The position numbers were made by a program, and so were the translations under genes. Below are positions 7,983 through 28,045 of a DNA stretch of 64,000 nt, piece by piece (positions within the stretch are counted from its first letter, which is position 1; each line of letters begins with the position of its first letter). The stretch is from Pseudomonas viridiflava (GTDB lineage Bacteria > Pseudomonadota > Gammaproteobacteria > Pseudomonadales > Pseudomonadaceae). The notes beneath the pieces are model-generated. The model ran no database searches and was not told the DNA's origin. It worked only from the letters and a program-made list of their open reading frames with translations. Where the stretch lies: assembly GCF_900573885.1 (NCBI RefSeq), contig NZ_UPSE01000453.1, positions 62,001-126,000 on the forward strand. The letters run 5' to 3'.

Positions 7983-7998
7983 TGAGAATCAGTAGGAC

Positions 7999-9510: not shown

Positions 9511-9525
9511 TCAAGAACCGTACCA
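9511..9525 (-). promoter_or_regulatory. Possible sigma54 promoter for fliD
   Basis: Minus-strand TGGTACGGTTCTTGA resembles TGGCACG-N4-TTGC, but the -12 element is GA instead of GC. It overlaps the flaG stop codon and lies about 65 nt upstream of fliD. In P. aeruginosa fliD is RpoN-dependent, which makes it plausible. Confidence 0.35.
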
Positions 9526-9527
9526 AC

Positions 9528-9893: not shown

Positions 9894-9917
9894 TTTAGAC
9901 ACCTCACAATGGCCAAA

Positions 9918-9946
9918 TGGGAGGAAGGGTCATCCCCTTCCTCCCA
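9918..9946 (-). terminator. Strong hairpin between fliC and flaG
   Basis: TGGGAGGAAGGG and CCCTTCCTCCCA (9918-9929 and 9935-9946) form a perfect 12-bp stem with a 5-nt loop. No T run follows on the minus strand, so it may be an attenuator or a 3' mRNA stabiliser that keeps fliC mRNA far above flaG, rather than a full stop. Confidence 0.65.
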
Positions 9947-9970
9947 CCGATTTTGGCGTCTCTTTCTGCG

Positions 9971-11434: not shown

Positions 11435-11462
11435 TTGGGCGTCTCCCGAGTACCTAGTATTT

Positions 11463-11499
11463 GCCTGAGCTTGCGACGTTCAGGGCCTGCAGCTCAGGC
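11463..11499 (-). promoter_or_regulatory. Hairpin in the fliC 5' leader
   Basis: GCCTGAGCT and AGCTCAGGC (11463-11471, 11491-11499) pair perfectly around a 19-nt loop within the leader of about 85 nt. It may stabilise the message or regulate its translation; no function is shown by sequence alone. Confidence 0.6.
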
Positions 11500-11525
11500 G
11501 CCCCTAGAATTCGCATTCGAAGTGT

Positions 11526-11552
11526 TTATCGGCGCTAGTTCTTGGAGCTTTA
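11526..11552 (-). promoter_or_regulatory. Sigma28 (FliA) promoter of fliC
   Basis: Minus strand: TAAA (11549-11552), exactly 15 nt, GCCGATAA (11526-11533): a perfect consensus match. An A/T-rich stretch (about 11553-11575) lies just upstream and may act as an UP element. The rest of the interval to 11783 shows no gene; it contains two similar short stretches reading CGCTTTCCTGACGCC and CGCTTTTCTGACGCG. Confidence 0.93.
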
Positions 11553-11783
11553 GCAAAATTTTCAAAATTTTTGCTGGCTGCTTGCTGAACCGGTGCAAAC
11601 CGCTTCCACACTTTCTGTATCGGCAGAGCCCGCAGAACTAAAGGGCTGACTGGATTTTTTTAACACCTGCTGCACACCAATTAAGCGAAGCGGCCGCTCG
11701 CCCCACGCTTTCCTGACGCCAAATTTCAATACCAGTCGGCACTTAGCGACGTCGCTCGCGCCAGGCGCTTTTCTGACGCGGAT

Positions 11784-11820
11784 AAAAAAAGGCCAGGTAT
11801 TTTTCATACCTGGCCTTCTT
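11784..11820 (-). terminator. Intrinsic terminator of the glycan operon
   Basis: AAGGCCAGGTAT-GAAAA-ATACCTGGCCTT followed by a T run on the minus strand, about 40 nt after the glycosyltransferase stop. It insulates the long pse operon from fliC. Confidence 0.9.
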
Positions 11821-11859
11821 TACCGTGCTAACAGCCTAGTTCATCCGCAGGCGTACCGC

Positions 11860-14800: not shown

Positions 14801-15819
14801 ATCGCTTCGATGCAGTAGTTCGAGTCCACGGCAATCAGCACATCCGCAGCGGCTGCCCACAACGGCGCGTCATCGACGAGGTAAACGTAGTAAGCCGGGT
14901 CGGCGCCGCGCTCGGCGAGCAGTTCTTTGAAGCGACGCTCGCCGAAATGATAGTTGGGCGGGCGATCCTTGATGATCGGGTTGCACAGCACGCCGTCGCG
15001 GCGAAGCGCTTCGCAGGCGTCGATAAACTGGCCGACGGTCTGGCCGAAGATACCTTCATCACCGTTGGCGGTGAGCACGGAGCTCCAGGTGGTGCCAAAC
15101 ACCACGATCGGCTGCCCGTCGCGCAGTGGGTATTTTTCCCGCAGCTCGGTGTTGCGTACCGCCCGCTCGCCGCGCAGTTTGACGAACTTGTCCCACGAGG
15201 GGTTGCCCGTCACGCGCATGCGCTCGGCTGGCACGCCGTAGTCCAGATAGCCTTCCAGACCGCGCTGGCCATACACCGCGTGCATGTCGGCGGTGAGTTG
15301 GGCGTGCACGGTGTGCGGGTCGTTCAGGGCCAGTGCATGGGACAGGTGCAACGACGGCACGCCCTGCTCCCGCGCCCACAGCATGGCGATTTTGGCCACC
15401 GTCATCACGTCTTCACTGGCGATCATCAGGCTCAAGCGGTATTGGCTCTGCGCCAGTTCCAGACCTTGCAGCAAGGTGATCATCACCGGCACTTCGGCAT
15501 CCACGCGGGCTTTGATAACCGGCAGCAGGCCCAGGGGATTCTCTTGCGCCACCGCCGCCGGCAGCGCTTCGTTGAAGTAGCGTTCAATGCGTTCCTGAAG
15601 CGGCGCCAGCTCCACGCCAATGGACTGCGCGCCCACCAGGTCGAGCTCGTGATCGACCACAAACACCTTGCCGCCCACTTCGTTGACCACGTCCAGCAGG
15701 GCCTGGGTGGCGTAAGGAGACAGCGTGACAACCGTCATCGGCCCGTGGCGGCGGAAAAACTCGCGCAGCACGCCCAGCTGAGACTCCCAGAGGAAACTAA
15801 CAATCGCAGACGGCTTCAC
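11860..15819 (-). CDS. Giant multidomain flagellar glycosyltransferase (FgtA-like)
   Basis: A 1319-residue soluble protein. The N-terminal third resembles CDP-glycerol/surface-polysaccharide transferase folds (VVFGTTWSSVLT, YYVYLVDDAPLWAAADVLI... region). A weak GT2-like segment (about 480-700) is followed by a clear GT2 domain (about 735-990; PRVSIVVAVRDHLALVQRCV, YLVLLSHDVQIVQEDW, NDVDLCLRIRAAG). The last 320 residues look like a GT4-type transferase (VGWAGGVSHTGDLELIV, SNLRLLEYGVLGFPVVCSD). Size and location next to fliC match FgtA/Fgt1 enzymes that glycosylate Pseudomonas flagellin. I start at GTG 15819 (VKPSAIVSFLWE): it has GGAG upstream and a 4-nt GTGA overlap with the upstream gene. 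A longer frame adds 38 unlikely residues. Last gene of the operon. Confidence 0.82.
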   Translation of the reverse strand: MKPSAIVSFLWESQLGVLREFFRRHGPMTVVTLSPYATQALLDVVNEVGGKVFVVDHELDLVGAQSIGVELAPLQERIERYFNEALPAAVAQENPLGLLPVIKARVDAEVPVMITLLQGLELAQSQYRLSLMIASEDVMTVAKIAMLWAREQGVPSLHLSHALALNDPHTVHAQLTADMHAVYGQRGLEGYLDYGVPAERMRVTGNPSWDKFVKLRGERAVRNTELREKYPLRDGQPIVVFGTTWSSVLTANGDEGIFGQTVGQFIDACEALRRDGVLCNPIIKDRPPNYHFGERRFKELLAERGADPAYYVYLVDDAPLWAAAADVLIAVDSNYCIEAMQCGTPAINLQHPANTVFGPCYDATAGVLDVEARELPGAIRRLLTEPAFRDAQVAQATRGLPYFNLGIDGQAGARVAELMGEMAVGLVPKLITWLEARLPVATERALIAQRLERCALQRPVLGVLVLDTAGNAAALQTTLNSLKRALPAPVKVAVFSHAAQPALAADVDLISVAAEQRVDALNAYIAGADGQPLFDWFVLVEAGVEFTRAGLLMLSLELAEAQAAEALGGEVAHGFYCDELQRTSLGAIGALFKPDFNLDLLLSFPAMIGRHWALRQRSFVELDGFNPLFADAFQLDLQLRLVHGCAGSGLHRVPEVLLVTDVPSLAFNPAEQVALEEHLAARGYTQARVQAFLPGRYYIDYGHAQQPRVSIVVAVRDHLALVQRCVDSLLEKTAYGHYELLLVDCGSQETATRTWLDSVEALGSEQVRVWHFDGPFNFSAMVNAVAMTVSADYLVLLSHDVQIVQEDWLEHLLNQAQRPEVGVVGAKVLDPQGKIEQAGIVLGLHDVAGRGFAGEPGDAAGYMNRLQVTQNYSAVGAACLMVRREIFVQVGGMDEQKLATFYNDVDLCLRIRAAGLLNVWTPHAVVVRSGIELPALAIDGALPRQAAFKAEREEMYRRWLPDLARDPAYNPNLSLAGSGFMFDYGNRRVQPLLPQILCYAADSSGCGHYRVLQPFAAMRDAGLVDGLISNIHLPPLELERFQAQTVVFQRQIMAHQIDEMEEVKRLSSVFKVYELDDYLPNLPLKSYHREHMPKDVRKSLRRAVALTDRFVVSTAPLAEAFADMHSDIRIVPNRLPVSWWGALNGQRRVGRKPRVGWAGGVSHTGDLELIVDVVKNLAAEVEWVFFGMCPEALKPYVHEFYTGVPIEQYPAMLAAMNLDLALAPLEQNQFNDCKSNLRLLEYGVLGFPVVCSDVVCYRDGLPVTRVKNRYKDWMDAIRMHLSDLDATAAAGDELRRIVRRDWMLEGANLQSWKEAWLPD

Positions 15820-16886
15820 GCGCTTACTCCGGTGTGGGTCTTGAAATAATCGCGGAGCAGGTTCGCGGCCAATTGGTAGTGCAGGCCGGCCGCCAGGTCC
15901 ACGTCGCCGCGCAGCAATTGGCTGCCCGCCCATTGCTGCAAGATCGCCCCGTTGCGCGCGTCGATGTCATGGGCGGTGCGCCAGCGCAGCAGCTGGGCGT
16001 TGGTCTCGACATCCAGATAGGGTTCGGTGGCGAAGCCCGGCCGGTGCGCGGCCAACGCCCGTTGCAGCAGGTACAGCACATGGCGGGTACGCAGCGAAGT
16101 GGTCAACGGCACGGCCTCGGCGCGCAGCTGTTCGGTGCTGCGTTCGAGCAGAGCCTCGACGCCATTCAGGTCCGGGCTTTCCAGCACGCCTTCCAGCGTC
16201 GCCAGGCGCGACAGCCATTGCACATTGGCAGCCGGGTTTGCGCCTTTCTCCAGCGTCACCAGGTAGCGGCCACTGGCAGACGGCGCCAGCCTGGCCATGA
16301 CCTGCTGTTCCAGAAACAGCGCCAACTGAAAAAACGCCTCGTCGGTTTCCAGCCACGACAGCAACCGCAGCCATTTGAAACGATGCGGCAGGCTGCGATA
16401 GAGCATGGCGTTGTCCCACAACCCGGCGTAGGGCTGCAGGCTCACCAACGAAAAACCGCGCGCCGACGCCAGGGCGAGCAAATCGCTCGGGGCGCAAAAC
16501 GCAGTGGCGGCGTCCTCGCGGGCGTGTTGCGGCCACTGGCCCATGTCATCGGCAAACGCGGCTTGCCAGTGCGCCGGCGAACGCAGGTCGAGCACCAGCC
16601 GGCCGCCGGGACGCAACTGTTCGGCGCAGCGGTCCAGCAACTGGGTCAGGGAACGATCGGGCGAAAGCGCCGCGAATGCCTGAATCGCAGCGCAACCCGA
16701 CTCGGGCATGGCGGAATCGGCCGTCACGGTCTGCACCTCGGTTTGCTTCAATTGCTGGTCGGCAAATTGTTGCTCGACAGCACGGCGCAAGCGGCTGATG
16801 CCGGCGTTGGCAAACAGCTGTGGCCCGTCGGACAGTTGCAGGTGGGTGTTGGTCCAATCGGTCTGTTGCAGAGCGTCTGTGGTCAT
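15816..16886 (-). CDS. Methyltransferase-like protein of the glycan operon, probably degenerate
   Basis: A 356-residue protein I do not recognise as a named enzyme. Residues about 60-130 resemble the second half of a class I SAM-methyltransferase (LRPGGRLVLDLRS at 91-103). The glycine-rich SAM-binding motif I is not visible upstream, so it may be inactive or bind another ligand. The remaining two thirds are helical and of unknown fold. It overlaps the giant glycosyltransferase by 4 nt (GTGA), and the two are probably translationally coupled, suggesting a partner or tailoring role in glycan transfer. It follows the PIG-L gene after a 31-nt gap. Confidence 0.6.
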   Translation of the reverse strand: MTTDALQQTDWTNTHLQLSDGPQLFANAGISRLRRAVEQQFADQQLKQTEVQTVTADSAMPESGCAAIQAFAALSPDRSLTQLLDRCAEQLRPGGRLVLDLRSPAHWQAAFADDMGQWPQHAREDAATAFCAPSDLLALASARGFSLVSLQPYAGLWDNAMLYRSLPHRFKWLRLLSWLETDEAFFQLALFLEQQVMARLAPSASGRYLVTLEKGANPAANVQWLSRLATLEGVLESPDLNGVEALLERSTEQLRAEAVPLTTSLRTRHVLYLLQRALAAHRPGFATEPYLDVETNAQLLRWRTAHDIDARNGAILQQWAGSQLLRGDVDLAAGLHYQLAANLLRDYFKTHTGVSA

Positions 16887-16917: not shown

Positions 16918-17601
16918 TCAGTAAAAGTTCAGGCGGCGGCCCAGTACAAAGGCTTCAGCCGCGTCCACGCCCACAGTCGCACCGCGCCAGCGGGCGAGGT
17001 GCTCAAGGGCTTTAAGCGAGCGCGGGTGCGGCCAGGCGCGCATCTCCATGGCATAGGCATCCAGGGCGCGCAGTTTGGTCTCGAGTGTCTGGGAAATATC
17101 GCTGAACCAGTTGGGCAGGAAGGCCGGCGCGCTGTGGGGAATCTGCCATTCGGTGGACGACGCCACTTCAAAAAACAGCAGCGTGTGCACCGGGTGCCCG
17201 GGCTGTGGCCGACAGGCCGTGACAACCGCTTCATGCAACAGGCGATGGTCGATATTCACGTCGCCGCTCCAATGGCCATACACGATGCCTGGCTTGTGAC
17301 GCTGCACCAGCGCCTCGACTTTTTGCACGATATCCAGCAGATCCAGGCTGTCGAGGCGATTGTCCGGCAGGTCGAAGCATTCCAGGCTGGTGACGCCGAG
17401 GATGGCATTGGCTTTCTGACAGGCCTCGCGCAACGCTGCCTGTTCGGCTTCTGCCGGCGTGCCTCGGCTGAACAGTCCTTGCGCCATGATCGCGACATGC
17501 ACGTCATCGCCCCGGGAGGCGTGCCAGGCAAGGGTGCCGCCGCAGCCCAGCACTTCATCGTCCGGGTGGGCGGCGATGACTAAAACGGTTTCGCGCGTCA
17601 T
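16918..17601 (-). CDS. PIG-L/LmbE family deacetylase
   Basis: A 227-residue zinc-dependent N-acetyl-sugar deacetylase of the PIG-L family. The metal-binding motif AAHPDDEVLGCGG (residues 11-23) and a second histidine-aspartate pair (NIDHRLLHEAV) are intact, so it should be active. Family members remove N-acetyl groups from GlcNAc-like sugars. In this operon, flanked by pseudaminic-type sugar genes, it could deacetylate the nonulosonate or a linked sugar so that another acyl group can be added; this is inference. Its start overlaps the FAD-oxidoreductase stop by 4 nt (ATGA). Confidence 0.85.
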   Translation of the reverse strand: MTRETVLVIAAHPDDEVLGCGGTLAWHASRGDDVHVAIMAQGLFSRGTPAEAEQAALREACQKANAILGVTSLECFDLPDNRLDSLDLLDIVQKVEALVQRHKPGIVYGHWSGDVNIDHRLLHEAVVTACRPQPGHPVHTLLFFEVASSTEWQIPHSAPAFLPNWFSDISQTLETKLRALDAYAMEMRAWPHPRSLKALEHLARWRGATVGVDAAEAFVLGRRLNFY

Positions 17602-18947
17602 GGCGCCTCCTGGAAATCGGGTTTGCCAAAGCGTTGCTGCAACTGACTGGCGGTTTGCAGCAGCACTTCGGTCATAAAAAATGCGTCGGAAGCGTTGCGA
17701 CCGCAGAGCAGCAGCTGGTCTGAAAGACCACCAACCTGAACGCGCATGGCACGTTGCGCCGCTTCCTGCGTCAGTGTCACTTCCGGGAAGCCGTTACTCA
17801 CCGCCTGCTCTGCCGCCAGGTCTACCCGGCAATTTTCGCTAATCAGCCCGCTTGCGCGTAGTTCGTTGATCACCGCCTGAGCCTGCACCGCCGGCGTTTC
17901 GTGTGGCTGGTCGAGCGCTTCCACGGTGATGCGCCAGGGGTTGCCCGACGACGGCAGTACGTTGTCGTAGAAGGTGACACGAAACGAGCGCGCGCCCGCC
18001 TCGTTCAGGTACACGTAGTGGCAGTCGCACGCTGGCGGCTGGTCGAGCACTAAATGAAACAAGCGAATCGGCAGAAAACGCGGCGGCCCGCCCTGCACTG
18101 GCAAGCCCAGCGCCAGAGCCAGAAAAGCCACCGGCGCCGTCCATACCAGTTGTTCGAATTCAAGCTGGCTGCCGTCGGCCAGGGTCAGGGTGGCGGCCTC
18201 AAGGTTCAGCGAGCGGATTTGCGCCCCGGTACGCAATTGCCCGCCCTGCCCCACGAAGCCCGCGCACAACGCAGTGGTCCAGGCGCCCATGCCACCTTTG
18301 CGCGGGTACACGTGGCGAATGGCACTGCGCCCCTCGGTGTAATCGGCGAACCCCACTTTGCTGTCGTACACCGGCGAGCGTTTGAGCTCACGGCATACCT
18401 GCGGCGCCCCGACTATTACGCGGCTATAACCGAGAAACAGGTGCGCCTTGCTGCTGAGCTGATCCAGGCTGGCCTGATAAAACCGCGCCAGCAGCGGTGC
18501 GAATACGCGTTCCACCAGCGCCGCGCCAACGTGTTGGTGCAAGGCCTGCTCAAGATTGCTGACCGGTTGCGGCTCGGCCACGGCGTTGATCAGGCCGGCC
18601 AGGCAAGCCTGGTAATCGGCAACCGGCAGACGGCTGATGTCGAGAAACTGGCTGCGGCTGTTGAGCACGCCCTGAAACACGTTGCCGACCTTGAGCACCG
18701 GCACGTCTTGCCAGGCCAGGTCGAGGCTGTCGAACATCAACCGGTCCACGTCGGCATCGCCGGTGTAGGCCGGAATGTGGGTACCGATGTCGAACACGTT
18801 GCCGGCGGCGTCCTGCTGGGAACGCAGCAAGCCCCCGCAGGCATCGGCGCGTTCAAGTAACACAACCGGGCGACCGCACGCCTGAATCCAGCGTGCAGCC
18901 AATAGCCCTGCCACGCCGCCGCCGACCACCACAATTGGCTTTTCCAT
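17598..18947 (-). CDS. FAD-dependent oxidoreductase (protoporphyrinogen oxidase/UDP-galactopyranose mutase-like)
   Basis: A 449-residue flavoprotein of the amine-oxidase/mutase superfamily. The dinucleotide-binding motif VVGGGVAG (7-14), the ribose-binding acidic residue in VVLLERADACGGLL, and a C-terminal FAD segment (QLLLCGRNASDAFF) are visible. Such proteins in sugar loci include UDP-galactopyranose mutase relatives and desaturases; the substrate here is unknown. It is embedded in the glycan operon, 3 nt after a methyltransferase and overlapping a deacetylase by 4 nt, so a sugar or sugar-lipid substrate is the natural guess. No transmembrane segment is evident. Confidence 0.72.
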   Translation of the reverse strand: MEKPIVVVGGGVAGLLAARWIQACGRPVVLLERADACGGLLRSQQDAAGNVFDIGTHIPAYTGDADVDRLMFDSLDLAWQDVPVLKVGNVFQGVLNSRSQFLDISRLPVADYQACLAGLINAVAEPQPVSNLEQALHQHVGAALVERVFAPLLARFYQASLDQLSSKAHLFLGYSRVIVGAPQVCRELKRSPVYDSKVGFADYTEGRSAIRHVYPRKGGMGAWTTALCAGFVGQGGQLRTGAQIRSLNLEAATLTLADGSQLEFEQLVWTAPVAFLALALGLPVQGGPPRFLPIRLFHLVLDQPPACDCHYVYLNEAGARSFRVTFYDNVLPSSGNPWRITVEALDQPHETPAVQAQAVINELRASGLISENCRVDLAAEQAVSNGFPEVTLTQEAAQRAMRVQVGGLSDQLLLCGRNASDAFFMTEVLLQTASQLQQRFGKPDFQEAP

Positions 18948-18950
18948 GGC

Positions 18951-19622
18951 TTAGCCCAACGGCTTACGGGCCACCAGCAGCCACGAGGCGAAACGGTGGT
19001 TATCGGCAGGCTCGTAACGTACTGCCTGTTTCTCTTCCAGCATCACCAGCTCGAAATCCTGGAACAGGTCGCGCAGGTGCGCTTCGTCCGAGAAATGTAC
19101 ATTGCCGGTGTTGGCAAACGAGCCGCTGGTGAACGCCTTGCGGGTGAACGCGTCTTCGCCACGCTCGCCGTTGGCGTAGTCCGAATGCAGTGTGGAATAC
19201 CAGTCCACGCCGATGAAAAAGCCGCCGGGCAGCAACGCGTCGTAAGCCTGACGCAGGCAGCGGCGAATGGCCTGGCCGCCGTTGCAGGTCAGCGAGGCGC
19301 GGTCGATCACCAGGTCAAAGCCCGGGGCAAACGCCCAGGGCTGGGTGAAGTCGCCCGTGACAATGGAGTCGGCCAGATGGGGCAGGCGCTCATGCAAGGT
19401 GGCGACAATGGTCGGGCTGCCTTCAACCGCGTGATAGGCCACGCCCAGCGCTTCGAAGAACGGAATGTTGGCGCCTGCGCCGCAGCCCAGTTCCAGCACC
19501 CGGCTGCCGGCACCCAGCGTGCGGCAATGGCGGCGGGTCAGGCTGACCACGTCCGACCAGGGCCATACCGACAGATGTGTATTTTCGGCGTACCGCTGTT
19601 CCCACTCGTTGGAAAAACTCAT
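18951..19622 (-). CDS. Class I SAM-dependent methyltransferase
   Basis: A 223-residue methyltransferase with an intact SAM-binding motif I (RVLELGCGAGANI, 41-53), an acidic motif II (YHAVEGS) and post-I features (SIVTGDFTQPW, FDLVIDRASL). I use the ATG giving MSFSNEWEQRYAEN, which has GGGAG 5 nt upstream and an ATGA overlap with the WbqC gene; the longer frame adds five residues. It is likely a small-molecule or sugar methylase that tailors the nonulosonate or flagellar glycan. Substrate unknown; it is distinct from the Pse-associated methylase upstream. Confidence 0.78.
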   Translation of the reverse strand: MSFSNEWEQRYAENTHLSVWPWSDVVSLTRRHCRTLGAGSRVLELGCGAGANIPFFEALGVAYHAVEGSPTIVATLHERLPHLADSIVTGDFTQPWAFAPGFDLVIDRASLTCNGGQAIRRCLRQAYDALLPGGFFIGVDWYSTLHSDYANGERGEDAFTRKAFTSGSFANTGNVHFSDEAHLRDLFQDFELVMLEEKQAVRYEPADNHRFASWLLVARKPLG

Positions 19623-20314
19623 AGCCACTCCCTGCATTCAGTTCTGCTGTCACCGCTGTTCATCCACCAGTCCAGCACACTCAGCCCCGCAACGAACTCG
19701 CCCCACAGCTGTGGGTAAACGGGCGGTTTGAAGGCCTGATACTGAACGGCGATACCGGCATCGGCAAACGCCGGCTCGTCGAGGTAATCCTTGCCCAGCG
19801 CACCGGACAGGTAGGCGCTGGCGTTCAGGCGCTGGCAAATATCCAGCACCAGGTCTGACTTGCGGCTGGTTAACTGCAATTCGCCGGCGCGCACCAGTTC
19901 GGTGGCGATGCCCAGCTCGCCAAGCCAGAACCGCAACTGCTGCCAGCACAGCTCGGCGAGGTTGTCTTCGGCGGCGCTGTACAGCGCTTCAAGCTTGGCA
20001 AAGCGCTCGGCAAAGTGCGCCGTTTTGCGGTAATTGAGGCTGATGGCCTTAAGGTGATCGGCGCGCCAGTTCTTGCTGTTATCGATCTGCGTGTCGCGCA
20101 AGGTGCCGGCCAGATGCCCGCGGGTTTTCACCGGAATGGTCAGCCACTGGGCGCCCTGCGGCGTCTTGATCCGGTTGCGGTTGATAAAGCTGTTTTTCTC
20201 GAACTGCACATTGTCGAGAAACACGAACACGTCGGCCCGGGCAATGCGCTCGAAGTAACCCAGCCACGGCAGATACGCCGGCTGGTGGGCAGCCAGTGTG
20301 CGTACTTCAGCCAT
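19619..20314 (-). CDS. WbqC family protein
   Basis: A 231-residue protein of the WbqC family, recognised by the N-terminal AAHQPAYLPWLGYFERI, then NVQFEKNSFINRNRIK and SGALGKDYLDE. The family occurs in O-antigen, capsule and flagellar glycan loci and has no settled biochemical role; an acyl- or aminoacyl-transfer function has been suggested for relatives. It overlaps pseH by 8 nt and the downstream methyltransferase by 4 nt, so it is translated as part of the sugar operon. ATG 20314 is used; the preceding TTG is less likely. Confidence 0.82.
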   Translation of the reverse strand: MAEVRTLAAHQPAYLPWLGYFERIARADVFVFLDNVQFEKNSFINRNRIKTPQGAQWLTIPVKTRGHLAGTLRDTQIDNSKNWRADHLKAISLNYRKTAHFAERFAKLEALYSAAEDNLAELCWQQLRFWLGELGIATELVRAGELQLTSRKSDLVLDICQRLNASAYLSGALGKDYLDEPAFADAGIAVQYQAFKPPVYPQLWGEFVAGLSVLDWWMNSGDSRTECREWL

Positions 20315-20858
20315 CAAACAACTCGCTTAGCAGGCCCTGGCGCTTTTGCTGCCACGGCTCGGCGAACAAGGCGAACAGGTGAATATCGAACACCCCGTCG
20401 TCACGGTGAATATGCCGGCGGCGCAGACCTTCGCTTTCAAAACCCAGGCGTTGGTGCACGGCCAGGCTGGCGCCATTGAAGCTCAGCACCTCCGAGCAGA
20501 TTTTCTCCAGCGCCAGCTCACTGAAAACGTAGTCCGCCACTAACGCCAACATGCGCGCGCCGCTGCCTTTGGCCTGCGGCGTGTCGGTGAGGTTGAAGCC
20601 CCAGGCGCAACGACGATGGCGCCCGCTGATGTCTGTGAGGCTGGCATAGCCCACGGCGCTGGCGCTGTGCTCGAAAATCAGGTGACGGCTGTCGGGGTTC
20701 GCCAGCTCACGCGCCAACCAGCCCATGTGCTCGGGCATTTCGATAGGCGCGGTGTTGTACATGAACGGCCGGTTGCTCTCGGCGTTGCGCCAGCGCAGCA
20801 GCGCCTCGGCATCGGCCAGTTCAACAGGGCGCAAACGGTAGTCGCCCTTCTCCATCAT
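20307..20858 (-). CDS. pseH: PseH-like UDP-amino-sugar N-acetyltransferase (GNAT)
   Basis: A 183-residue GNAT acetyltransferase. Conserved features include LRPVELADAEALLRWRN near the N-terminus, the acetyl-CoA loop KGSGARMLALV, and VLSFNGASLAVHQRLGF before the C-terminus. PseH acetylates the 4-amino group of the UDP-altrosamine intermediate made by PseC, giving the UDP-diacetamido sugar used by PseG. Assignment rests on family match plus its place between pseI and WbqC. It starts inside the pseI stop (ATGA). Alternative acyl donors cannot be excluded. Confidence 0.85.
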   Translation of the reverse strand: MMEKGDYRLRPVELADAEALLRWRNAESNRPFMYNTAPIEMPEHMGWLARELANPDSRHLIFEHSASAVGYASLTDISGRHRRCAWGFNLTDTPQAKGSGARMLALVADYVFSELALEKICSEVLSFNGASLAVHQRLGFESEGLRRRHIHRDDGVFDIHLFALFAEPWQQKRQGLLSELFDG

Positions 20859-21925
20859 CGACCGGCCCCGACGAAATCGCCCAGTTGCAACAGTTCGCCT
20901 TCGGCAATGGCGCGCGTGGCAACGGTGCCCAGCGCCTGCTCGAACAACGCCGGCGACAAGCCATTGCCGGGGCGGCGCAGACCGATGTTGTCCGCGCTCA
21001 GGGTTTCACCGGGCGCGATGGCCTTGATCGCCACCAGGCTGCGGCGCGCCAGTACGCGCATGTCGAGCTCGGCAGCGGTGGGCCGCACAAAGGGCGAGCC
21101 GATAATGCGGTCGGCCCGATGGATGTGCTCAATCCATTCGGTCAGGCCCTGCACGTTTTCGGAAAACCAGTGGTCCGGACCCGGCAAGTCATGATCAAGG
21201 GTGAAGTGTTTTTCAAATAGGCGCGCGCCACGGGCCACCGCCAACGACGCCGCCAACGGCCCCTGGGTGTGGTCGGAAAAGCCCACCAGCAAACCGGGGA
21301 AGGCCTGCTGCAAGGTGGTGAGTTTGCTCAGGTTCACGTCCGCATCGGGCGTCGGGTACTGCGAGGTGCACAGCAGCAACGCAACCTGCTGGCCGGCGAA
21401 CCAGCCGACCGTCTCCAGTGCCTGATGCACCTCGGCCAGGTCGCTCATGCCGCACGACAGAATCAGCGGCAGCTGCGCTTCGGCATACGAGCGCAGCAAG
21501 GGCAGATTGGTGAAATCGTCCGAGCCGACCTTGATCGCCGGCACGCCAATTTGCATGAGCAGATCGAGGTCGCTGCGGTTCTGCGGCGACGAGAAAAAGG
21601 TGATGCCCACGTTCAGGCAATAAGCCTTTACCTGCTGCCACTGCCCGGCACTGAACTGGTAGCGCTGAAACATCGCCAGCATCGACTCGGTAACGCTTTT
21701 ACCCTGGGATTTATAGGTAAACATCTGCGTGGGGTCGCCGCAGAACTCTTCGGCCTTGAAGGTCTGAAACTTCACCGCATCGGCGCCGGCGGCCTTTGCT
21801 GCATCGATCATGCGCAGGGCCAGGTCCAGGTCGCCGTTGTGGTTAATGCCCACTTCGGCGATGCAGTACGGCGGCGCGTCGGCGCCAATGGCGCGGCCGG
21901 CAATGGCAAACGGGGTTTTCGACAT
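20855..21925 (-). CDS. pseI: NeuB-family nonulosonate synthase (in the PseI position)
   Basis: A 356-residue enzyme condensing phosphoenolpyruvate with a 6-carbon amino sugar. The NeuB barrel spans about 20-260 and the antifreeze-like SAF domain about 280-350 (VLARRSLVAIKAIAPGETLS, RRPGNGLSP). By position it should act on the PseG product to give a pseudaminic-type acid. However, its motifs (AEVGINHNGD, VKFQTFKAEEF, EKHFTLDHDLPGPDHWFS) are those of NeuB/LegI synthases; classical PseI has a GVDSAFS-type motif where this one has GPDHWFS. The symbol is therefore assigned by pathway context. It shares one base (TGATG) with pseG and overlaps pseH by 4 nt. Confidence 0.8.
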   Translation of the reverse strand: MSKTPFAIAGRAIGADAPPYCIAEVGINHNGDLDLALRMIDAAKAAGADAVKFQTFKAEEFCGDPTQMFTYKSQGKSVTESMLAMFQRYQFSAGQWQQVKAYCLNVGITFFSSPQNRSDLDLLMQIGVPAIKVGSDDFTNLPLLRSYAEAQLPLILSCGMSDLAEVHQALETVGWFAGQQVALLLCTSQYPTPDADVNLSKLTTLQQAFPGLLVGFSDHTQGPLAASLAVARGARLFEKHFTLDHDLPGPDHWFSENVQGLTEWIEHIHRADRIIGSPFVRPTAAELDMRVLARRSLVAIKAIAPGETLSADNIGLRRPGNGLSPALFEQALGTVATRAIAEGELLQLGDFVGAGR

Positions 21926-22995
21926 CAGTGACTACCTTCTGCAACGGCCGACGGCCTTGCCAACGATTCCAGCATCGCCAGGCTTACGCGCCCGGCACCC
22001 AAGCCATCCACCAGGTTCCACGCTGCAGCGGACATGGCTGCCAGTTGCGGCGGCACCAGCCCTTCCAGGGCATGGCGATACTGCTCCACGGTCAGCTTGC
22101 CGGCGTCGCCCAGATTGACTGCCGCGCCCAGGCGATGCAGGCCGGCCGCCAGGCTGCGCTGGTTGTCGGCGAGAATTACCAGCAACGACGGCACACCCAC
22201 GGCGCAGCGCTCCCACGAGGCCGAACCGGCAGCACCAATGGCCAGGTCCGCTTCGGCCAGCAGGCGCGCCATGTAATCCACTTGTACGTGCAATTGCCAG
22301 CGCTGCGCCTGGCAATAGGCAGCCAGCGATTTCTCGCCCGGATGGTCGCTGCCGATCACGACATCCACGTGCACATTCAGGCCCCAATGCACCAGGGCTT
22401 GCAGGCATTTGAACAGTTCGCCGCCGTCATCGCCGCCGGTAAAAAACACCACCACCCGCTGCACGCTGCCATTGCGCGGCGCGGCGCTGGCGCGAGCGAG
22501 CAGAAATTCTTCGCGCAGCAACGCGTATTGCGGGCCGAACAGCTGCATGGCCGGGCGCTGCAACAGCGGCGCGTAGCGCGCAGCGGAGTTGTCGTCGAAG
22601 CCCTGGTCGAGCAGCACGTCGCAATCGAGCGGCCGGTCAGCCAGGTCGTCGATCACCATGATGCGTTTGGCAAAGCGGCGGGCGGCCTGATGCCAGACGG
22701 CGTCGAGCGCGTAATGGTCGACCACGCACCAGTCGAAACGCCGCTCGCCCAGCCGCGCGGCCAGGCCTGCGCAATCTGCCGCGCCGTCGACTGTCGCATC
22801 GGCCGCCTCGGACCCGCGCAACCGCAGCACCTCGTACTGGCCTGGAATGATCGCCAACGGCGCACCGGGCAGGTCGCGGCAGGCAAACGTCACCTGCGCG
22901 CCCTGCTCGTGAAGCTGCCTGGCAAGCGTCAGGCAACGCAGCAGGTGGCCGCTGCCAATGGTCAGCGAGGCATCCACACGGACCAGCACGCGCAT
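21925..22995 (-). CDS. pseG: PseG-type UDP-sugar hydrolase
   Basis: A 356-residue GT-B-fold hydrolase that removes UDP from UDP-2,4-diacetamido-trideoxy-altropyranose with inversion. The start MRVLVRVDASLTIGSGHLLR includes His17, the position of the catalytic base described for Campylobacter PseG. The linker MVIDDLADRPLDCDVLLDQG and the nucleotide-binding GAAGSASWERCAVGVPSL are family hallmarks. It is longer than Campylobacter PseG, with a variable C-terminal tail. It follows pseF after one base and overlaps the synthase gene by one base. Confidence 0.92.
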   Translation of the reverse strand: MRVLVRVDASLTIGSGHLLRCLTLARQLHEQGAQVTFACRDLPGAPLAIIPGQYEVLRLRGSEAADATVDGAADCAGLAARLGERRFDWCVVDHYALDAVWHQAARRFAKRIMVIDDLADRPLDCDVLLDQGFDDNSAARYAPLLQRPAMQLFGPQYALLREEFLLARASAAPRNGSVQRVVVFFTGGDDGGELFKCLQALVHWGLNVHVDVVIGSDHPGEKSLAAYCQAQRWQLHVQVDYMARLLAEADLAIGAAGSASWERCAVGVPSLLVILADNQRSLAAGLHRLGAAVNLGDAGKLTVEQYRHALEGLVPPQLAAMSAAAWNLVDGLGAGRVSLAMLESLARPSAVAEGSH

Positions 22996-22996: not shown

Positions 22997-23701
22997 TCAA
23001 ATGTCTCCGTTCTGCTTGAGGCTGGCGTACATCAGCTCAGCGCGGCGCCAGTCTTCGGGGGTGTCGATGTCTTGCACCAGGTAACGCGGCAACAGCACCG
23101 GCAACGAGTGCGGCGCGTGAATCGCCAGGCCCTCGGCCCACGCGTCGCGGCGGCCCCAATAGAACTGACCGGCGTCGTGGTACACCGGCTCCAGGTCTTG
23201 CGAGCGGGTGTCGTAATACTCAGGGTACAGCGACTCGACGCACTGCTCCGCATTCAGGCGCAACGCGCGCTGTACGGGCGAGCCGTAGCCGGTGATGCTG
23301 AAGGCGAAGGCTTTGTCCGGGCGCGCCTGCAGAATGTCCAGGCCTTCGCGCAGGCTGGCCGGTTGCACGAACGGCGCCGTGGCATACAGGCAGCAGGCGT
23401 ACTCGGGCTCGTAGCCGGTGGCGGCCAGATCTGCCAGCGCATGCTGAATAACCTCGACGGTACCGGCATGGTCATCGGCCAGCTCGGCGGGCCGCATAAA
23501 CGGCACCTCGGCGCCGAGACTGCGCGCCACCTCGGCCATCTCGACGTCATCGGTACTGACCACCACGCGCTCGAACACCCCGGCGGCCAGGCCGGCCTGG
23601 ATGGAATAGGCAATGATCGGCTGACCATGGAACAGCTTGATGTTCTTGCGCGGAATGCGCTTGCTGCCGCCACGCGCCGGAATGATCAGCACGTTGCTCA
23701 T
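22997..23701 (-). CDS. pseF: Pseudaminic acid cytidylyltransferase PseF
   Basis: A 234-residue CMP-sugar synthetase with the N-terminal signature PARGGSKRIPRKNIK (8-22), STDDVEMAEVARSLGAEVPF and CCLYATAPFVQP, typical of the PseF branch. It activates the nonulosonate with CTP to form the CMP donor used by the glycosyltransferase. Its ATG overlaps the methylase stop by 4 nt. PseF-like motifs, together with PseB, PseC and PseG, argue for a pseudaminic rather than neuraminic acid product. Confidence 0.93.
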   Translation of the reverse strand: MSNVLIIPARGGSKRIPRKNIKLFHGQPIIAYSIQAGLAAGVFERVVVSTDDVEMAEVARSLGAEVPFMRPAELADDHAGTVEVIQHALADLAATGYEPEYACCLYATAPFVQPASLREGLDILQARPDKAFAFSITGYGSPVQRALRLNAEQCVESLYPEYYDTRSQDLEPVYHDAGQFYWGRRDAWAEGLAIHAPHSLPVLLPRYLVQDIDTPEDWRRAELMYASLKQNGDI

Positions 23702-24318
23702 GGACGTTTTTCCAACAGAAACCAGTTGAGATCGTCAGCGGGAAAATTGGCGTCGCGGTGGTACACAAAGCCGTAATCCACCAGCTGCAAGTCGGCATAC
23801 AGGTCGAGCATCTCGCCGGCAAAATCGCGCTTGAACAGCTTGCCGCTGTGGCCGCGATAACCAATCTCCACGGGCGCCGGGTTGTAGTACTCGGCGATCA
23901 GCACGTAGCGACTGCTCGCTTCATACAGCTTGGCGTACGCCTGGGGCAGCAGCTCGGGCGGCAAGTGAATGAGCACGCCTTTGGTAAAGCTCAGGTCGAC
24001 ATTCTGGCTCACCGGGTAATCAAACAACGAACCCTGCCAGACCGTCGCCACGTTGAGGCTTTGGGCGATTTCGCAGGCTTTGGCGTTCAGTTCCACGCCG
24101 TGCAGCTGCGCACGCGGAAACAGCTGCGCCAAGGCTTGCAGATTGAGGCCGCGGTTAGTGCCCAGCTCCAGCACGCTGCCCAGGCGCCCGGCGCTGCGCA
24201 GCGCCTGCACAAAGAACGCCACGGCCCAGGCCACCGGCAGCTCGCCTTCGTTGCGGTCGACATACTGGTCGCCGAATTCGCCTTGCCAGAAACGTTCCTG
24301 CTCAGTCAGTTCACGCAT
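23698..24318 (-). CDS. Pseudaminic acid biosynthesis-associated methylase
   Basis: A 206-residue SAM-dependent methyltransferase whose N-terminus (MRELTEQERFWQGEFG) and motif I variant SVLELGTNRGLNLQAL match the family annotated as pseudaminic-acid-biosynthesis-associated methylases. The family is known from genome context; its target, probably the nonulosonate or a precursor, has not been pinned down as far as I know. ATG 24318 has GGAG 8 nt upstream; the ORF could start five codons earlier without a site. It lies between pseC and pseF and overlaps pseF by 4 nt. Confidence 0.85.
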   Translation of the reverse strand: MRELTEQERFWQGEFGDQYVDRNEGELPVAWAVAFFVQALRSAGRLGSVLELGTNRGLNLQALAQLFPRAQLHGVELNAKACEIAQSLNVATVWQGSLFDYPVSQNVDLSFTKGVLIHLPPELLPQAYAKLYEASSRYVLIAEYYNPAPVEIGYRGHSGKLFKRDFAGEMLDLYADLQLVDYGFVYHRDANFPADDLNWFLLEKRP

Positions 24319-24348
24319 GGGCGTGCTCTCCATGGAAGATCGCAGCGG

Positions 24349-25506
24349 TCAGCGCAGTGCGTTTTTCAACGCCTGCACGACCTGATTTTGTTGTTCGTCG
24401 CTCATGTCGGCGTAAAGCGGCAAGCTCACGGCTTCCCGGTAATAGCGCTCGGCTTCGGGGAAGTCGCCGGTGGCGAATCCACGCTGTTGGTAATACGGCT
24501 GCACATGCACTGGAATGTAATGCAGGTTCACGCCGATTCCGGCCTCACGCAGCGCGGTAAATATGCTGGCGTGGTCGCCTTGCAAGCGCTCGAGCTGCAA
24601 GCGAACCGGGTACAGATGCCAGGCCGACTCGGCACCGTGCTGGGCCACCGGCAGCGTCACTGGCAAATCCTTCAGCAGTTGGTCATAACGCGCCGCCAGT
24701 TCGCGGCGGCGGGCTACAAACGCGTGCAACCGGGTCAGTTGCGACAAGCCCAGTGCCGCCTGGATGTCGGTCATCCGGTAGTTGTAACCCAGCTCCAGCT
24801 GCTGGTAGTACCAGGGGCCATCGCTGGGCTGGGTCATCAGCGCCGGGTCGCGGGTAATGCCATGGCTGCGCAGGCGGCGCAGACGTTCGGCGAGTTCGCC
24901 GCTCTGCGTCGTCAGCAGGCCGCCCTCGCCCGTGGTAATGATTTTTACCGGGTGAAAGCTGAACACCGTGATGTCGGCGTAATCGCCACAACCAACCGGT
25001 CGCCCGGCGTAGCTCGCGCCCACGGCGTGGGAGGCGTCTTCAATCACCTTGAAACCGTAGTGCTGCGCCAGTTGCTGCACAGCGGCCATGTCGCAGCTCT
25101 GCCCGGCAAACGCCACCGGCACCACGATCTTTGGCAAGCACCCACGGCGTTCAGCCTCGGCCAGCTTGCTGGCGAGACGCGCAACGTCGAGGTTGAGGGT
25201 GTGCGGGTCGATATCGACAAAATCCACCGAGGCGCCGCAATACAGCGCGCAGTTGGCGCTGGCGACAAAGGTGTTCGGGCTGGTCCACAACAGGTCACCG
25301 GGGCCGAGGTCCAGGGCCAGACAAGCGATATGCAACGCGGCGGTGGCGTTGCTCACGGCAACGCCGTAAGCCGCCTGACACGTACTCGCCATCGCCTGCT
25401 CGAAGCGCTCGATGGCCGGGCCCTGGGTCAGAAAGTCGGACTGCAACACGGCGACCACGGCGTCGATGTCCGCCTGGGAAATACTCTGCCGGCCGTAAGG
25501 AATCAT
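24349..25506 (-). CDS. pseC: UDP-amino-sugar transaminase PseC
   Basis: A 385-residue PLP-dependent DegT/DnrJ/EryC1-family aminotransferase. The N-terminus IPYGRQSISQADIDAVV, the PLP-binding lysine in FSFHPVKIITTGEGGLL, the active-site EDASHAVGASY and C-terminal GIGVNLHYIPVHVQPYYQ are typical of PseC. It transfers an amino group from glutamate to the 4-keto sugar made by PseB, giving UDP-4-amino-4,6-dideoxy-GlcNAc-type altrosamine. I chose the ATG 4 nt after the pseB stop; the ORF extends eight codons further upstream into pseB. Confidence 0.94.
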   Translation of the reverse strand: MIPYGRQSISQADIDAVVAVLQSDFLTQGPAIERFEQAMASTCQAAYGVAVSNATAALHIACLALDLGPGDLLWTSPNTFVASANCALYCGASVDFVDIDPHTLNLDVARLASKLAEAERRGCLPKIVVPVAFAGQSCDMAAVQQLAQHYGFKVIEDASHAVGASYAGRPVGCGDYADITVFSFHPVKIITTGEGGLLTTQSGELAERLRRLRSHGITRDPALMTQPSDGPWYYQQLELGYNYRMTDIQAALGLSQLTRLHAFVARRRELAARYDQLLKDLPVTLPVAQHGAESAWHLYPVRLQLERLQGDHASIFTALREAGIGVNLHYIPVHVQPYYQQRGFATGDFPEAERYYREAVSLPLYADMSDEQQNQVVQALKNALR

Positions 25507-25510
25507 CGGC

Positions 25511-26506
25511 TCACGACCAGACTTCGCCAAGCTGACGCAGCTCGTCGATGTTCAGGTAATGGGTGTTGCTGTCGGACACGTATTCGAAGCCTTCCACTAC
25601 CGGCACGCCGCTGTCGCCCAGGCCGTCTACCGAGTAGTCACTCTGCTCGGTAAAGACAATGGACGGCGCGATCACGAAGTGCTCGGCAAACTCGAACGTG
25701 TGGGTGCTGTCGTCGCGGGAAATCATCATTTCGTGCAGCTTTTCGCCGGGACGAATGCCGACCATGCGGTGCGGCAGTGCCGGCGCGAGCGCGGTGGCCA
25801 GGTCGACGATGCGCGCCGAGGGAATTTTCGGCACAAACAGCTCGCCGCCGTGCATGCGCTCAAAGCTCTTCATCACGAATTCCACGCCCTGGTCGAGGGT
25901 GATCCAGAACCGCGTCATGCGCTCATCGGTGATGGGCAAATCCACCGCGCCGTCGTTGATGAGCTTGCGAAAGAACGGCAACACCGAACCCCGCGAACCG
26001 ACCACATTGCCGTAACGCACGACGGCGAAGCGGGTTTCCCGGCCGCCAGTGATGTTGTTGGCGGCGATAAACAATTTGTCGCTCAAAAGCTTGGTAGCGC
26101 CATACAGATTGATCGGGCTGGAGGCTTTGTCGGTGGACAGCGCTATGACTTTTTCAACGCCGTTGGCGAGGGCCGCGTGAATGATGTTTTCCGCGCCGCT
26201 GACGTTGGTGCGAATGCATTCCGACGGGTTGTATTCAGCAGCCGGCACTTGCTTGAGGGCGGCGGCATGCACGACGAAGTCGATACCGCGCATGGCTTGC
26301 TTAACCCGCTCGGCGTCTCGCACGTCGCCCAGAAAGTAACGCATGCAGGGTGCATGGAATTCCTGCTGCATTTCGTACTGCTTGAGTTCGTCGCGGGAAA
26401 ACACCACCACACGTTTCGGTTGGTAGCGAGCCAGCAGCGCGCGAATAAAGGCTCGACCAAACGAGCCGGTGCCGCCGGAAATGAATACGGACTTACCGTC
26501 AAACAT
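25511..26506 (-). CDS. pseB: UDP-GlcNAc 4,6-dehydratase (inverting) PseB
   Basis: A 331-residue short-chain dehydrogenase of the FlaA1/PseB type. The NAD-binding motif is FISGGTGSFGRAF (8-20), the active-site DKASSP is followed by NLYGATKLLSD (Tyr-x3-Lys), and RYGNVVGSRGSVLPFF is conserved. It performs dehydration with C5 inversion as the first step of pseudaminic acid synthesis. The start MFDGKSVFISGG has GGGGAG 6 nt before it. The open frame runs 53 codons further upstream but crosses an RpoN promoter and is rejected. First gene of the 12-gene sugar operon. Confidence 0.96.
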   Translation of the reverse strand: MFDGKSVFISGGTGSFGRAFIRALLARYQPKRVVVFSRDELKQYEMQQEFHAPCMRYFLGDVRDAERVKQAMRGIDFVVHAAALKQVPAAEYNPSECIRTNVSGAENIIHAALANGVEKVIALSTDKASSPINLYGATKLLSDKLFIAANNITGGRETRFAVVRYGNVVGSRGSVLPFFRKLINDGAVDLPITDERMTRFWITLDQGVEFVMKSFERMHGGELFVPKIPSARIVDLATALAPALPHRMVGIRPGEKLHEMMISRDDSTHTFEFAEHFVIAPSIVFTEQSDYSVDGLGDSGVPVVEGFEYVSDSNTHYLNIDELRQLGEVWS

Positions 26507-26725: not shown

Positions 26726-28045
26726 TTAACTGATGTAGTTAAACAAACTGAGGTTGGCGATTTTCACGTAGCTCTGCTGCGCGGCCGAGAGAATGGTCGA
26801 TTGCAGCGAGAGCCGGGAGATGGCGTCGGCGTAGTCGAGGTCTTCGAGGTCCGATTGCACGGACTGGTTGACCAGCGTTACGTCGGCAATGAAGTCACCG
26901 GTGGAGTCCAGGGTGTTCAGGCGCGCACCCACGGAGCCGCGTACGCCATCGACCTTGGCATACACCGCGTCGAGGTTGGAGAGCGCGATGGCGGCGGTGT
27001 CGCGAATCACGCGGTTGTCTTCCGCCGAATTGCCGGAGCCTTGCAGGGCTTTGCGCAGGTCGGAAACGGTGTTGAGCAGGCTGCGCTTTTCTTCGTCCGG
27101 CTTGCGGTTGATGGCGTAGTCATCACCGTTCTGCGGCACGCCGTCGATTTGCACACGTACACCGCCGTAGCTGACGAAGTCAGAGGTGGCGGCATTGGTG
27201 TCGATGGCGCCGGTGGCCAACTGGCCAGCGGGCGGCGTGGTCGGGTCGTAGGTGTTCCAGTCGTAGCCGGCGGGCAGCGTGGCCTGATCGTAGACCACGT
27301 AATTGGTCGGGCTGAGGAAGTGAATGCCGATGCCGTCGGTAGCAACCGGCGGGTTGCTCGAGGGGAACGTGTTGTCGTAGGCAGCCTTGTCGGTCACCAG
27401 GCCAAGGGAAATACGCCCGGTACTGACTGTGCCATTCACGTCGGCACCGGTGGCGGTTTTGTTGGTGCTGACGCGGTTGGCGTTGAAGACGTTTTCGAAC
27501 AGGTCCTTGCCGTCGTCGCCCAGTGCCACAAAGGTGCTACTGGCGATCTGCACGTTGCGTTCGGTTTCGTTGCCCTGATAGCTGTAGGTGCCATCGGGGT
27601 TGCGCACGAAGGGTTGCTGATCGGACTGCGAGCCGCCGAACAGGTAGTTGCCGCTGGCGTCTTTGCTGTTCATCAGGCTGAGCAGTTCGTCTTCACGCTG
27701 CTGCAATTCAGTACCCAGCGACTCGCGGTCGGTGGCGTCGAGGGTGCCGTTACCGGCCTGCACGCCAATTTCGCGGATGCGCTGCAGCACGGTGCCCACA
27801 GAGTTGAGAATGGCCTCTTCGGAGTTGAGGCTGTTCTGCGCGGCGGTGTTGTTCGAGGTGTACTGGGCGTTGAGCGCCTGCTCCTGGCTCAACTGCAGCA
27901 AGCGCACCGACGCAACCGGGTCATCGGCCGGGGTCAGAATGCGCTTGCCGGTGCTGATCTGTTCCTGGGTGCGAGAAACGTTGGCGTAGTTCTTCTGCAT
28001 CCCGCTAACGGACGTGTTGAAGGCTTGGATAGTGGAAATTCGCAT
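26726..28045 (-). CDS. flgL: Hook-filament junction protein FlgL (HAP3)
   Basis: A 439-residue flagellin-like junction protein. The N-terminal D0/D1 helix (MRISTIQAFNTSVSGMQ, then GKRILTPADDPVASVRLLQL) and C-terminal helix (YADAISRLSLQSTILSAAQQ) are conserved; the middle (about 150-330) is the variable outer domain. With FlgK it joins the hook to the filament. It is the last gene of the flgFGHIJKL row, 12 nt after flgK, and is followed by a palindrome. Start and end fit the family. Confidence 0.95.
   Translation of the reverse strand: MRISTIQAFNTSVSGMQKNYANVSRTQEQISTGKRILTPADDPVASVRLLQLSQEQALNAQYTSNNTAAQNSLNSEEAILNSVGTVLQRIREIGVQAGNGTLDATDRESLGTELQQREDELLSLMNSKDASGNYLFGGSQSDQQPFVRNPDGTYSYQGNETERNVQIASSTFVALGDDGKDLFENVFNANRVSTNKTATGADVNGTVSTGRISLGLVTDKAAYDNTFPSSNPPVATDGIGIHFLSPTNYVVYDQATLPAGYDWNTYDPTTPPAGQLATGAIDTNAATSDFVSYGGVRVQIDGVPQNGDDYAINRKPDEEKRSLLNTVSDLRKALQGSGNSAEDNRVIRDTAAIALSNLDAVYAKVDGVRGSVGARLNTLDSTGDFIADVTLVNQSVQSDLEDLDYADAISRLSLQSTILSAAQQSYVKIANLSLFNYIS

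Follow-up and report, generated by a model that had tools for sequence, protein, structure and literature searches.

Nonulosonate synthases have been sorted into three pathways, those of neuraminic (Neu), legionaminic (Leg) and pseudaminic (Pse) acid (PMC7371886). From the comparison of the three Campylobacter jejuni synthases, one residue was proposed to select the orientation of the C2 N-acetyl group; “mostly but not strictly”, it is Gly in Neu and Leg and Phe in Pse (PMC7371886, section 7). According to a passage of PMC7591256, the NeuB of Caulobacter is replaceable by C. jejuni NeuB3 and by RkpQ, and not by NeuB1 or NeuB2. We have analyzed a 64,000-nucleotide stretch of Pseudomonas viridiflava (contig NZ_UPSE01000453.1, positions 62,001 to 126,000; hereafter the window), in which a synthase gene, P0001, lies in an operon that runs from an flgL-like gene to a flagellin gene, and which is therefore a flagellin glycosylation island. 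The flanking genes were initially annotated as the pseudaminic steps PseB, PseC, PseF and PseG; all four score above their NCBIfam cut-offs, as do a Pse-associated methylase and PseH, whereas the synthase stays below the cut-offs of both the PseI and the NeuB model. The sequence trees described below place P0001 in a well-supported third clade, which we call GSDD, outside both PseI and the group of genes around the NeuB model (the NeuB-model group).

The P0001 gene has 356 codons; its start overlaps the stop of pseG and its stop overlaps the start of pseH. The motifs AEVGINHNGD (residues 23-32), VKFQTFKAEEF (residues 51-61) and LPGPDHWFS (residues 247-255) all read as first annotated. A chance open reading frame was rejected on account of the operon and the family matches, with both Pfam domains of the NeuB superfamily above cut-off. 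The best NCBIfam score of P0001 is that of NeuB_NnaB (TIGR03569; 346.7 against a cut-off of 399.65), and PseI (TIGR03586) gives 243.9 against 340.25. Among solved structures, the nearest by sequence are Bacillus subtilis SpsE (210.8 bits), Neisseria meningitidis NeuB (185.1) and C. jejuni PseI (159.5), whereas L225, an NGR234 gene from a record without annotation that we take to be probably RkpQ, shows another order (PseI 280.1, SpsE 178.5 and NeuB 157.0 bits). At the positions of the active-site residues of N. meningitidis NeuB, P0001 is identical at E24, K52, Q54, K132, S135, S157, Y190, S217, H219, E238, H240, D251 and R318, and differs at N74, T110, G133, E134 and N184. The predicted structure of P0001 (mean predicted local distance difference test score 92.3) aligns with NeuB 2wqp (Z 36.8, root mean square deviation 3.8, 345 residues) and with C. 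jejuni PseI 8h2c (Z 35.3, deviation 2.5, 337 residues). By family and conserved active-site residues, P0001 is predicted to be a phosphoenolpyruvate (PEP)-dependent nonulosonate synthase, with PEP condensation as its reaction. It is the sole NeuB-family gene in its genome, and an ordinary PseI elsewhere was rejected because none was found in the assembly (664 contigs, 99.96% complete).

Synthases for comparison were gathered from genomes, GTDB contigs, viral contigs and plasmids; one homologue scan was limited to the best 80 of 549 matches, so the clade has more members than are counted here. Among the matches listed, the bacterial GSDD members share 91, 73, 68, 66, 60, 59, 56, 56, 54, 53, 51, 48, 48 and 45% identity with P0001, the sister group NGSD up to 45%, and other full-length bacterial sequences up to 44%; the viral GSDD members share 39-48%. 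This step in identity is distinct for the closest members and fades for the remotest, so a tree is needed to delimit the clade. In a tree of 67 rows, from which 30 of 97 rows had been left out for long branches or near-duplication, support is 99/96 for GSDD (20 rows), 99/96 for GSDD with NGSD (25 rows), 100/100 for PseI (11 rows) and 98/97 for the NeuB-model group (20 rows). P0001 had initially been set apart from PseI, and the phylogeny agrees: holding it with PseI costs 117 log units (approximately unbiased [AU] test, p 1.1e-5). The accompanying suggestion of a NeuB-branch enzyme has to be given up in its strict sense, because holding P0001 with the NeuB-model group costs 204 log units (AU p 5e-73), and the clade stands beside both groups. 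Constraints on P0001 alone also split its own clade; the test that holds the whole clade with core PseI rejects PseI less strongly (27 log units, p 0.011). PseI and the NeuB-model group are joined with a support of 81/24 only, which leaves the deep order open. The assayed enzymes in the tree are N. meningitidis NeuB, SpsE, C. jejuni PseI and probably RkpQ, with no assayed LegI among them. N. meningitidis NeuB, whose branch is very long, stands by itself at the root and thus likewise outside the NeuB-model group. SpsE, likewise on a long branch, joins two genes, L242 and L243, beside PseI (97/81) and not the GSDD clade. Members of the GSDD clade were found in seven phyla and on phage contigs.

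The clade differs from its relatives more sharply at the proposed selector position than in the GPDHWFS motif. By alignment, this position lies four residues past the second active-site Lys, and it is Asp136 in P0001. The other active-site residues are largely kept. In a FastTree tree of 257 rows, with the columns around the selector motif and GPDHWFS masked, the 32 rows around P0001 (support 76; 87 for the 25 GSDD rows) have Asp in 31 cases and Glu in one. In the smallest set that includes C. jejuni PseI together with L225, 26 of 29 rows have Phe, two Met and one Pro; in the smallest set that includes eight genes passing TIGR03569, 34 of 35 rows have Gly. PseG occurs in 27 of 119 genomes of the window's family, where the selector motif reads KIASFE in 22 and KxGSDD in two (G000 and G022), with G026, G035 and G082 outside this count. 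The motif alone is not enough to assign a gene to the clade, because L048:1468-2484 (G363) has GSDD at the selector site and yet falls inside the NeuB-model group; a weak PseG match adjoins it, and an independent gain of the selector Asp is possible. The initial annotation had looked for the distinction in GPDHWFS. Its view of a GVDSAFS-type motif as the mark of PseI holds for seven flgL-linked PseI islands of the window's family (GVDxxFS) and fails in general, with ESEDSKFS in C. jejuni PseI (8h2c) and GPDDSFS in L225. Its likening of GPDHWFS to NeuB and LegI breaks down at the sixth letter, where 97% of the 37 NeuB-model rows have Ala (GPDHxAS), and where the Phe of P0001 is common with PseI (100% of 15 rows). 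The selector residue also bears on whether the product could be a legionaminic-type acid with D configuration, as in B. subtilis, whose sps genes pair a PseG-like SpsG with SpsE in the account of PMC7439481. This precedent and the rank of SpsE as the best PDB sequence match of P0001 speak for such a product, but SpsE has Tyr at the selector and its place in the tree is beside PseI, and the window's PseB passes the C5-inverting model, which gives L-sugars, by 140 bits. We consider a legionaminic-type product very improbable.

We then compared the island with those of related bacteria. Thirteen PseI islands were taken (L056/L257 and L053/L256 being close pairs), and the ranges given are from the seven with flgL in the stretch. 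Between the window and these seven, identity is 64-75% for flgL, 79-84% for pseB, 72-78% for pseC, 64-74% for pseF and 71-80% for the methylase (present in five), and only 42-45% for pseG and 35-37% for the synthase. Both of the PseI islands that were tested have a PseG fused with a PseH-like domain and, as synthase, a PseI (495 and 497 bits). The GSDD island of G022, from another genus, shares with the window flgL at 67%, pseB 80%, pseC 72%, pseF 69%, the methylase 70%, pseG 56% and the synthase 68%. With pseB, pseC and pseF so similar and the synthase so different, the sequence comparison argues that the early steps and the activation with cytidine monophosphate have been kept at the flgL-linked locus and the condensing step exchanged. 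An own PseG line for the clade clusters found no support, as the label needs seven changes on the PseG tree; the exchange of pseG together with the synthase is thus backed solely by the fall in pseG identity between islands. The same data bear on the initial alternative of a stereochemical variant, for example fusaminic (L-gluco) acid, which would arise from addition of PEP by the synthase to the opposite face of the sugar released by PseG. Comparing the names given in PMC7371886, we take fusaminic acid to be the C4 epimer of Pse, and on chemical grounds C4 would be set by the synthase; a passage of the same source describes a Vibrio cluster with PseB, PseC and PseG whose product seems to be either an epimer of Pse5Ac7Ac or a positional variant of it. 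However, P0001 shows no change in the residues that correspond to the surroundings of PEP and C1, pseF is conserved with the PseI islands, and that Vibrio synthase is, as far as PMC7371886 tells, PseI-like and outside the GSDD clade. A stereoisomeric product therefore appears improbable.

Seventeen of 18 further genomes with a clade member have no PseI above cut-off, the exception being G682 with a partial gene at a contig end, and in 10 of the 18, several of which are metagenome-assembled genomes, the clade member is the only match at E 1e-20. In a sample of 185 genomes of the class, PseG is above cut-off in 17, of which 11 also have PseI above cut-off and G654 has a PseI-like fragment. The remaining five (G000, G125, G587, G611 and G613) have another synthase, three in the clade and two (L242 and L243, from G587 and G611) with SpsE. 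The PseG-linked synthases L242 and L243 carry KVASFD and GPDHxFA; they perhaps represent another synthase type that works with PseG, or use a substrate like that of SpsE.

The clade is further distinguished by its neighboring genes. The count of genes within 9 kb covered 26 clade members out of 32, of which 15 are from bacteria and 11 from viruses (L148-L150 among the latter being near-copies); the window itself and L023, L069, L072, L073 and L074, which have short flanks, were left out. The 114 other synthase loci, one row each, were chosen by likeness to P0001 or on request and are no random sample. A WbqC-family gene was found in 25/26 clade loci and 4/114 others (25/26 and 5/114 at a relaxed threshold), a methyltransferase in 20/26 and 1/114 (relaxed, 24/26 and 4/114), a hexapeptide protein in 16/26 and 0/114 (relaxed, 16/26 and 7/114), and PIG-L in 21/26 and 13/114 (relaxed, 21/26 and 15/114). 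The corresponding figures are 14/26 and 13/114 for PseG and 20/26 and 29/114 for PseC. The excess of PseB (20/26 and 47/114) and of PseF (17/26 and 48/114) is lost at the relaxed threshold (20/26 and 72/114; 17/26 and 74/114). With loci grouped by motif and several rows per locus allowed, WbqC is found in 19/19 against 23/150 and PIG-L in 16/19 against 35/150. The HPDDE motif is present in 21 of the 22 PIG-L genes of clade loci. As the search models had been built from clade loci, Pfam's own WbqC model was used in addition. Of the 38 NeuB-bearing genomes of the family, two, G000 and G022, have WbqC at most 10 kb from a NeuB gene by this model, and these are the two found with a GSDD synthase; in some other genomes of the family the two genes sit on different contigs. 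In the class sample, it finds WbqC near the synthase in the clade members G000, G125 and G613, and also next to the above-cut-off PseI of G506 and, in G658, at a distance of about 4 kb from a different NeuB-family gene, so the link is not exclusive. A separate clade beside pseG, which the initial annotation had envisaged, is borne out among bacteria, with a pseG homologue within reach in 14 of the 15 loci with enough flank, and in none of the 11 viral loci. The slot behind the synthase is occupied by PseH in the window, L064 and L052, by the hexapeptide protein in the 16 loci counted above, and by a formyltransferase-like match in L069 (above the Pfam cut-off) and L224 (just under it). These three kinds of N-acyl-type transferase, as predicted from sequence, point to a variable N-acyl group. 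In some clade clusters (L065, L067, L072 and L073), a class III aminotransferase and a cytidylyltransferase/aldo-keto reductase replace ordinary PseF; the latter two activities are fused in L065:4422-6062 and encoded by two genes in L067:4998-8087. A similar cytidylyltransferase fusion is mentioned for Vibrio sp. B9-25K2 in PMC7371886.

The linkage bears on another account of P0001, a non-orthologous replacement of PseI that makes plain Pse5Ac7Ac, with PIG-L, WbqC and the methyltransferases decorating the acid later or acting on another sugar of the glycan. The full Pse gene set, with PseG and PseH above cut-off and no other synthase in the genome, agrees with this account, and the likeness of pseF to that of same-place PseI islands suggests a like product. 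In Campylobacter, moreover, C5 derivatives such as Pse5Am7Ac coexist with Pse5Ac7Ac according to a passage of PMC3068675. Later decoration, however, would not require WbqC, PIG-L and the methyltransferase to be tied to the clade far above other synthases, and the selector residue is Asp and not Phe. We therefore regard plain Pse5Ac7Ac as unlikely, although less so than a stereoisomer.

A changed N-substituent fits the linked genes better than do the two options first proposed, namely an enzyme newly specific for the usual product of PseG and a product of different stereochemistry. We tentatively favor the reading that P0001 condenses PEP with a PseB/PseC-made L-sugar with differing amino substituents, giving an N-modified pseudaminic-type acid. 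The conservation of PseB, PseC and PseF speaks for a product that is L-configured and resembles Pse. Differing N-substituents are suggested by the exchange of the synthase, by its Asp at the C2 position and by the near-constant WbqC, methyltransferase and PIG-L. PseB and PseC would make UDP-linked 4-amino-4,6-dideoxy-L-AltNAc, which would next be N-acylated by PseH in the window and by the hexapeptide or formyltransferase-like protein in relatives. PseG would free the sugar, the synthase would condense it with PEP, and PseF would activate the product for transfer to flagellin. The distinct substituent would be carried by one of the sugar amines, with C2 (C5 in the product) as the most likely site; PIG-L may take off the acetyl group there, before or after condensation, and WbqC and the methyltransferase may supply another group. 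For PIG-L enzymes whose function is known, the target is the C2 acetamido group of N-acetylglucosamine compounds. Asp136, in place of the Phe of PseI or the Gly of NeuB/LegI, could hold a free or differently substituted amine at the C2 substituent. A bolder version, which we consider possible but doubtful, is a third synthase class that takes a 2-amino (not 2-acetamido) L-altro sugar via Asp in the C2 pocket and that would form, with PIG-L, WbqC and methyltransferases, a portable module for undescribed 5-N-substituted pseudaminic acids across several bacterial phyla and phages.

Several points weigh against the favored reading. PseH is present in the window, and the window's PseG passes the model whose name refers to the di-N-acetyl sugar; there is thus a good chance that the usual intermediate is made. 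Asp136 could equally contact the N-H of an unmodified acetamido group, and the linked genes may come into play only once condensation has taken place, or may serve a different sugar. WbqC also lies beside an above-cut-off PseI in G506; PIG-L is near 13 of the 114 other synthases and missing from 5 of the 26 clade loci (two on shortened contigs), and no PseG lies within 9 kb of the synthase in any of the 11 viral loci. The PseG tree shows no separate line for the clade clusters. The sequence data establish the clade, its Asp signature and its linked genes; we infer the substrate, the product, the role of WbqC and the order of de-N-acetylation and condensation.

On the minus strand, the order from flgL to flagellin is pseB, pseC, methylase, pseF, pseG, synthase, pseH and wbqC, followed by a second methyltransferase, an FAD-binding protein, PIG-L, a protein of unknown family and a large glycosyltransferase (Table 1). 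The name flgL is one we presume from likeness; Pseudomonas sp. GV071 shares 89% identity with the window in this gene, 92% in pseB and 91% in the synthase. The start of pseB was set at MFDGKSVF, whereas the mechanical open reading frame starts at 26665. The best NCBIfam model for the window's PIG-L is BshB1 (72.6, under its cut-off of 182.5), and the protein of unknown family has no Pfam or NCBIfam match. A foreign base composition of the island is unsupported (G+C 0.63-0.65 over the island and 0.56-0.64 around it), and no tandem repeats were found.

Table 1. Features of the flagellin glycosylation island in the window, and second synthase genes in other clade loci.
Feature	Position	Strand	Evidence
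flgL-like gene, one island end	26726..28045	minus	89% to same-placed gene of L064
pseB, inverting 4,6-dehydratase	25511..26506	minus	TIGR03589, 547.7 bits (cut-off 407.75)
pseC, aminotransferase	24349..25530	minus	TIGR03588, 577.2 bits (cut-off 423.5)
pseudaminic-acid-associated methylase (Pse_Me-ase)	23698..24333	minus	TIGR03587, 295.5 bits (cut-off 112.05)
pseF, cytidylyltransferase	22997..23701	minus	TIGR03584, 322.5 bits (cut-off 205.7)
pseG, UDP-sugar hydrolase	21925..22995	minus	TIGR03590, 260.5 bits (cut-off 153.55)
nonulosonate synthase P0001, GSDD clade	20855..21925	minus	PF03102, 249.3 bits; SAF, 47.7 bits; tree; selector residue
codons of K132-D137 (KVGSDD), with Asp136 at the proposed C2-selector position	21515..21532	minus	alignment; PMC7371886, section 7
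pseH, GNAT N-acetyltransferase	20307..20858	minus	TIGR03585, 106.5 bits (cut-off 93.1)
WbqC-family protein	19619..20317	minus	PF08889, 258.2 bits
S-adenosylmethionine methyltransferase	18951..19637	minus	methyltransferase Pfam families
FAD/NAD(P)-binding amine-oxidase-like protein	17598..18947	minus	PF01593
PIG-L family de-N-acetylase with HPDDE motif	16918..17601	minus	PF02585, 90.5 bits
protein of unknown family, 356 residues	15816..16886	minus	68% in L064 island, 41% in L052 island
large glycosyltransferase	11860..15933	minus	PF00535
flagellin gene (stop-to-stop frame), other island end	9974..11479	minus	Flagellin_N and Flagellin_C
second NeuB-family genes	L144:6871-7989, L146:6892-7986, L151:6883-7986 and others; L066:7164-8276, L071:15926-17029, L241:4616-5704		

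In several clade loci there is a second NeuB-family gene, which belongs to one of two further odd types: the first reads KIGSWD and has GHHH where GPDH is expected, and the second has SVEH. Both types are nearest to the GSDD/NGSD clade (91/82 together, 96/85 with the clade), and they may make a second acid. On the IMG/VR contig L146, a GSDD module (2207-13864) comprises PseB, PseC, two NeuB-family genes, a hexapeptide protein, WbqC, a methyltransferase, a cytidylyltransferase and PIG-L, with no PseG found in it. The module is flanked by genes for a terminase small subunit and a ParB-like protein and by those for a terminase large subunit and a portal protein, and a gene like phage hydroxymethylcytosine glucosyltransferase lies directly ahead of it. 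Similar sets are present on the IMG/VR contigs L144, L147-L153 and L175. Among 50,697 phage records, there was no GSDD member, the three matches being at most 33% identical.

The synthase sequence serves to predict which nonulosonic acid a bacterium makes; for the present clusters, whose synthases form a further clade with a selector residue and helper genes of their own, such predictions fail. The RefSeq name of the clade copy in Mariluticola is only “N-acetylneuraminate synthase family protein”, and among the open-library papers listed for our key words, none linked WbqC or PIG-L to a nonulosonate synthase; two of those listed mention WbqC once each. A third synthase line with helper genes of its own hints at an undescribed chemical version of a flagellar surface sugar, and the clade names organisms in which such a sugar could be sought. 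It also permits a direct test of the proposed specificity rule, with Gly, Phe and now Asp, and a copy between phage packaging genes would extend nonulosonate synthesis to phages.

Compared with known systems, P0001 resembles PseI (TIGR03586; C. jejuni 8h2c) in its fold, in the active-site residues aligned with NeuB, in Phe254, in its neighbors pseB, pseC, pseF, pseG and pseH and, in relatives, in the same place between flgL and flagellin. It differs from PseI in its score below the model's cut-off, its place outside the PseI clade, Asp in place of Phe at the selector, Gly26 where PseI has Ser (100% of 15 PseI rows), and the linkage of its clade to WbqC, PIG-L and the methyltransferase. With the NeuB/NnaB model group (TIGR03569), into which LegI-type genes fall, it shares the GINHNGD-, VKFQTFK- and GPDH-type motifs, but it scores below that cut-off too, has Asp for Gly and Phe254 for Ala, forms a separate clade and has neighbors of Pse type and not of Leg or Neu type. 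SpsE of B. subtilis likewise goes together with a PseG-like hydrolase where no ordinary PseI takes part, as described in PMC7439481, and differs from P0001 in its Tyr at the selector, in its position beside PseI and in the legionaminic acid reported for it in that account. The flagellar nonulosonate of Shewanella oneidensis, which in the description of PMC3765264 carries a single N-acetyl group and a methylated moiety of 236-264 Da, is a precedent for the kind of product proposed here, although it depends on other genes, sfmABCDE.

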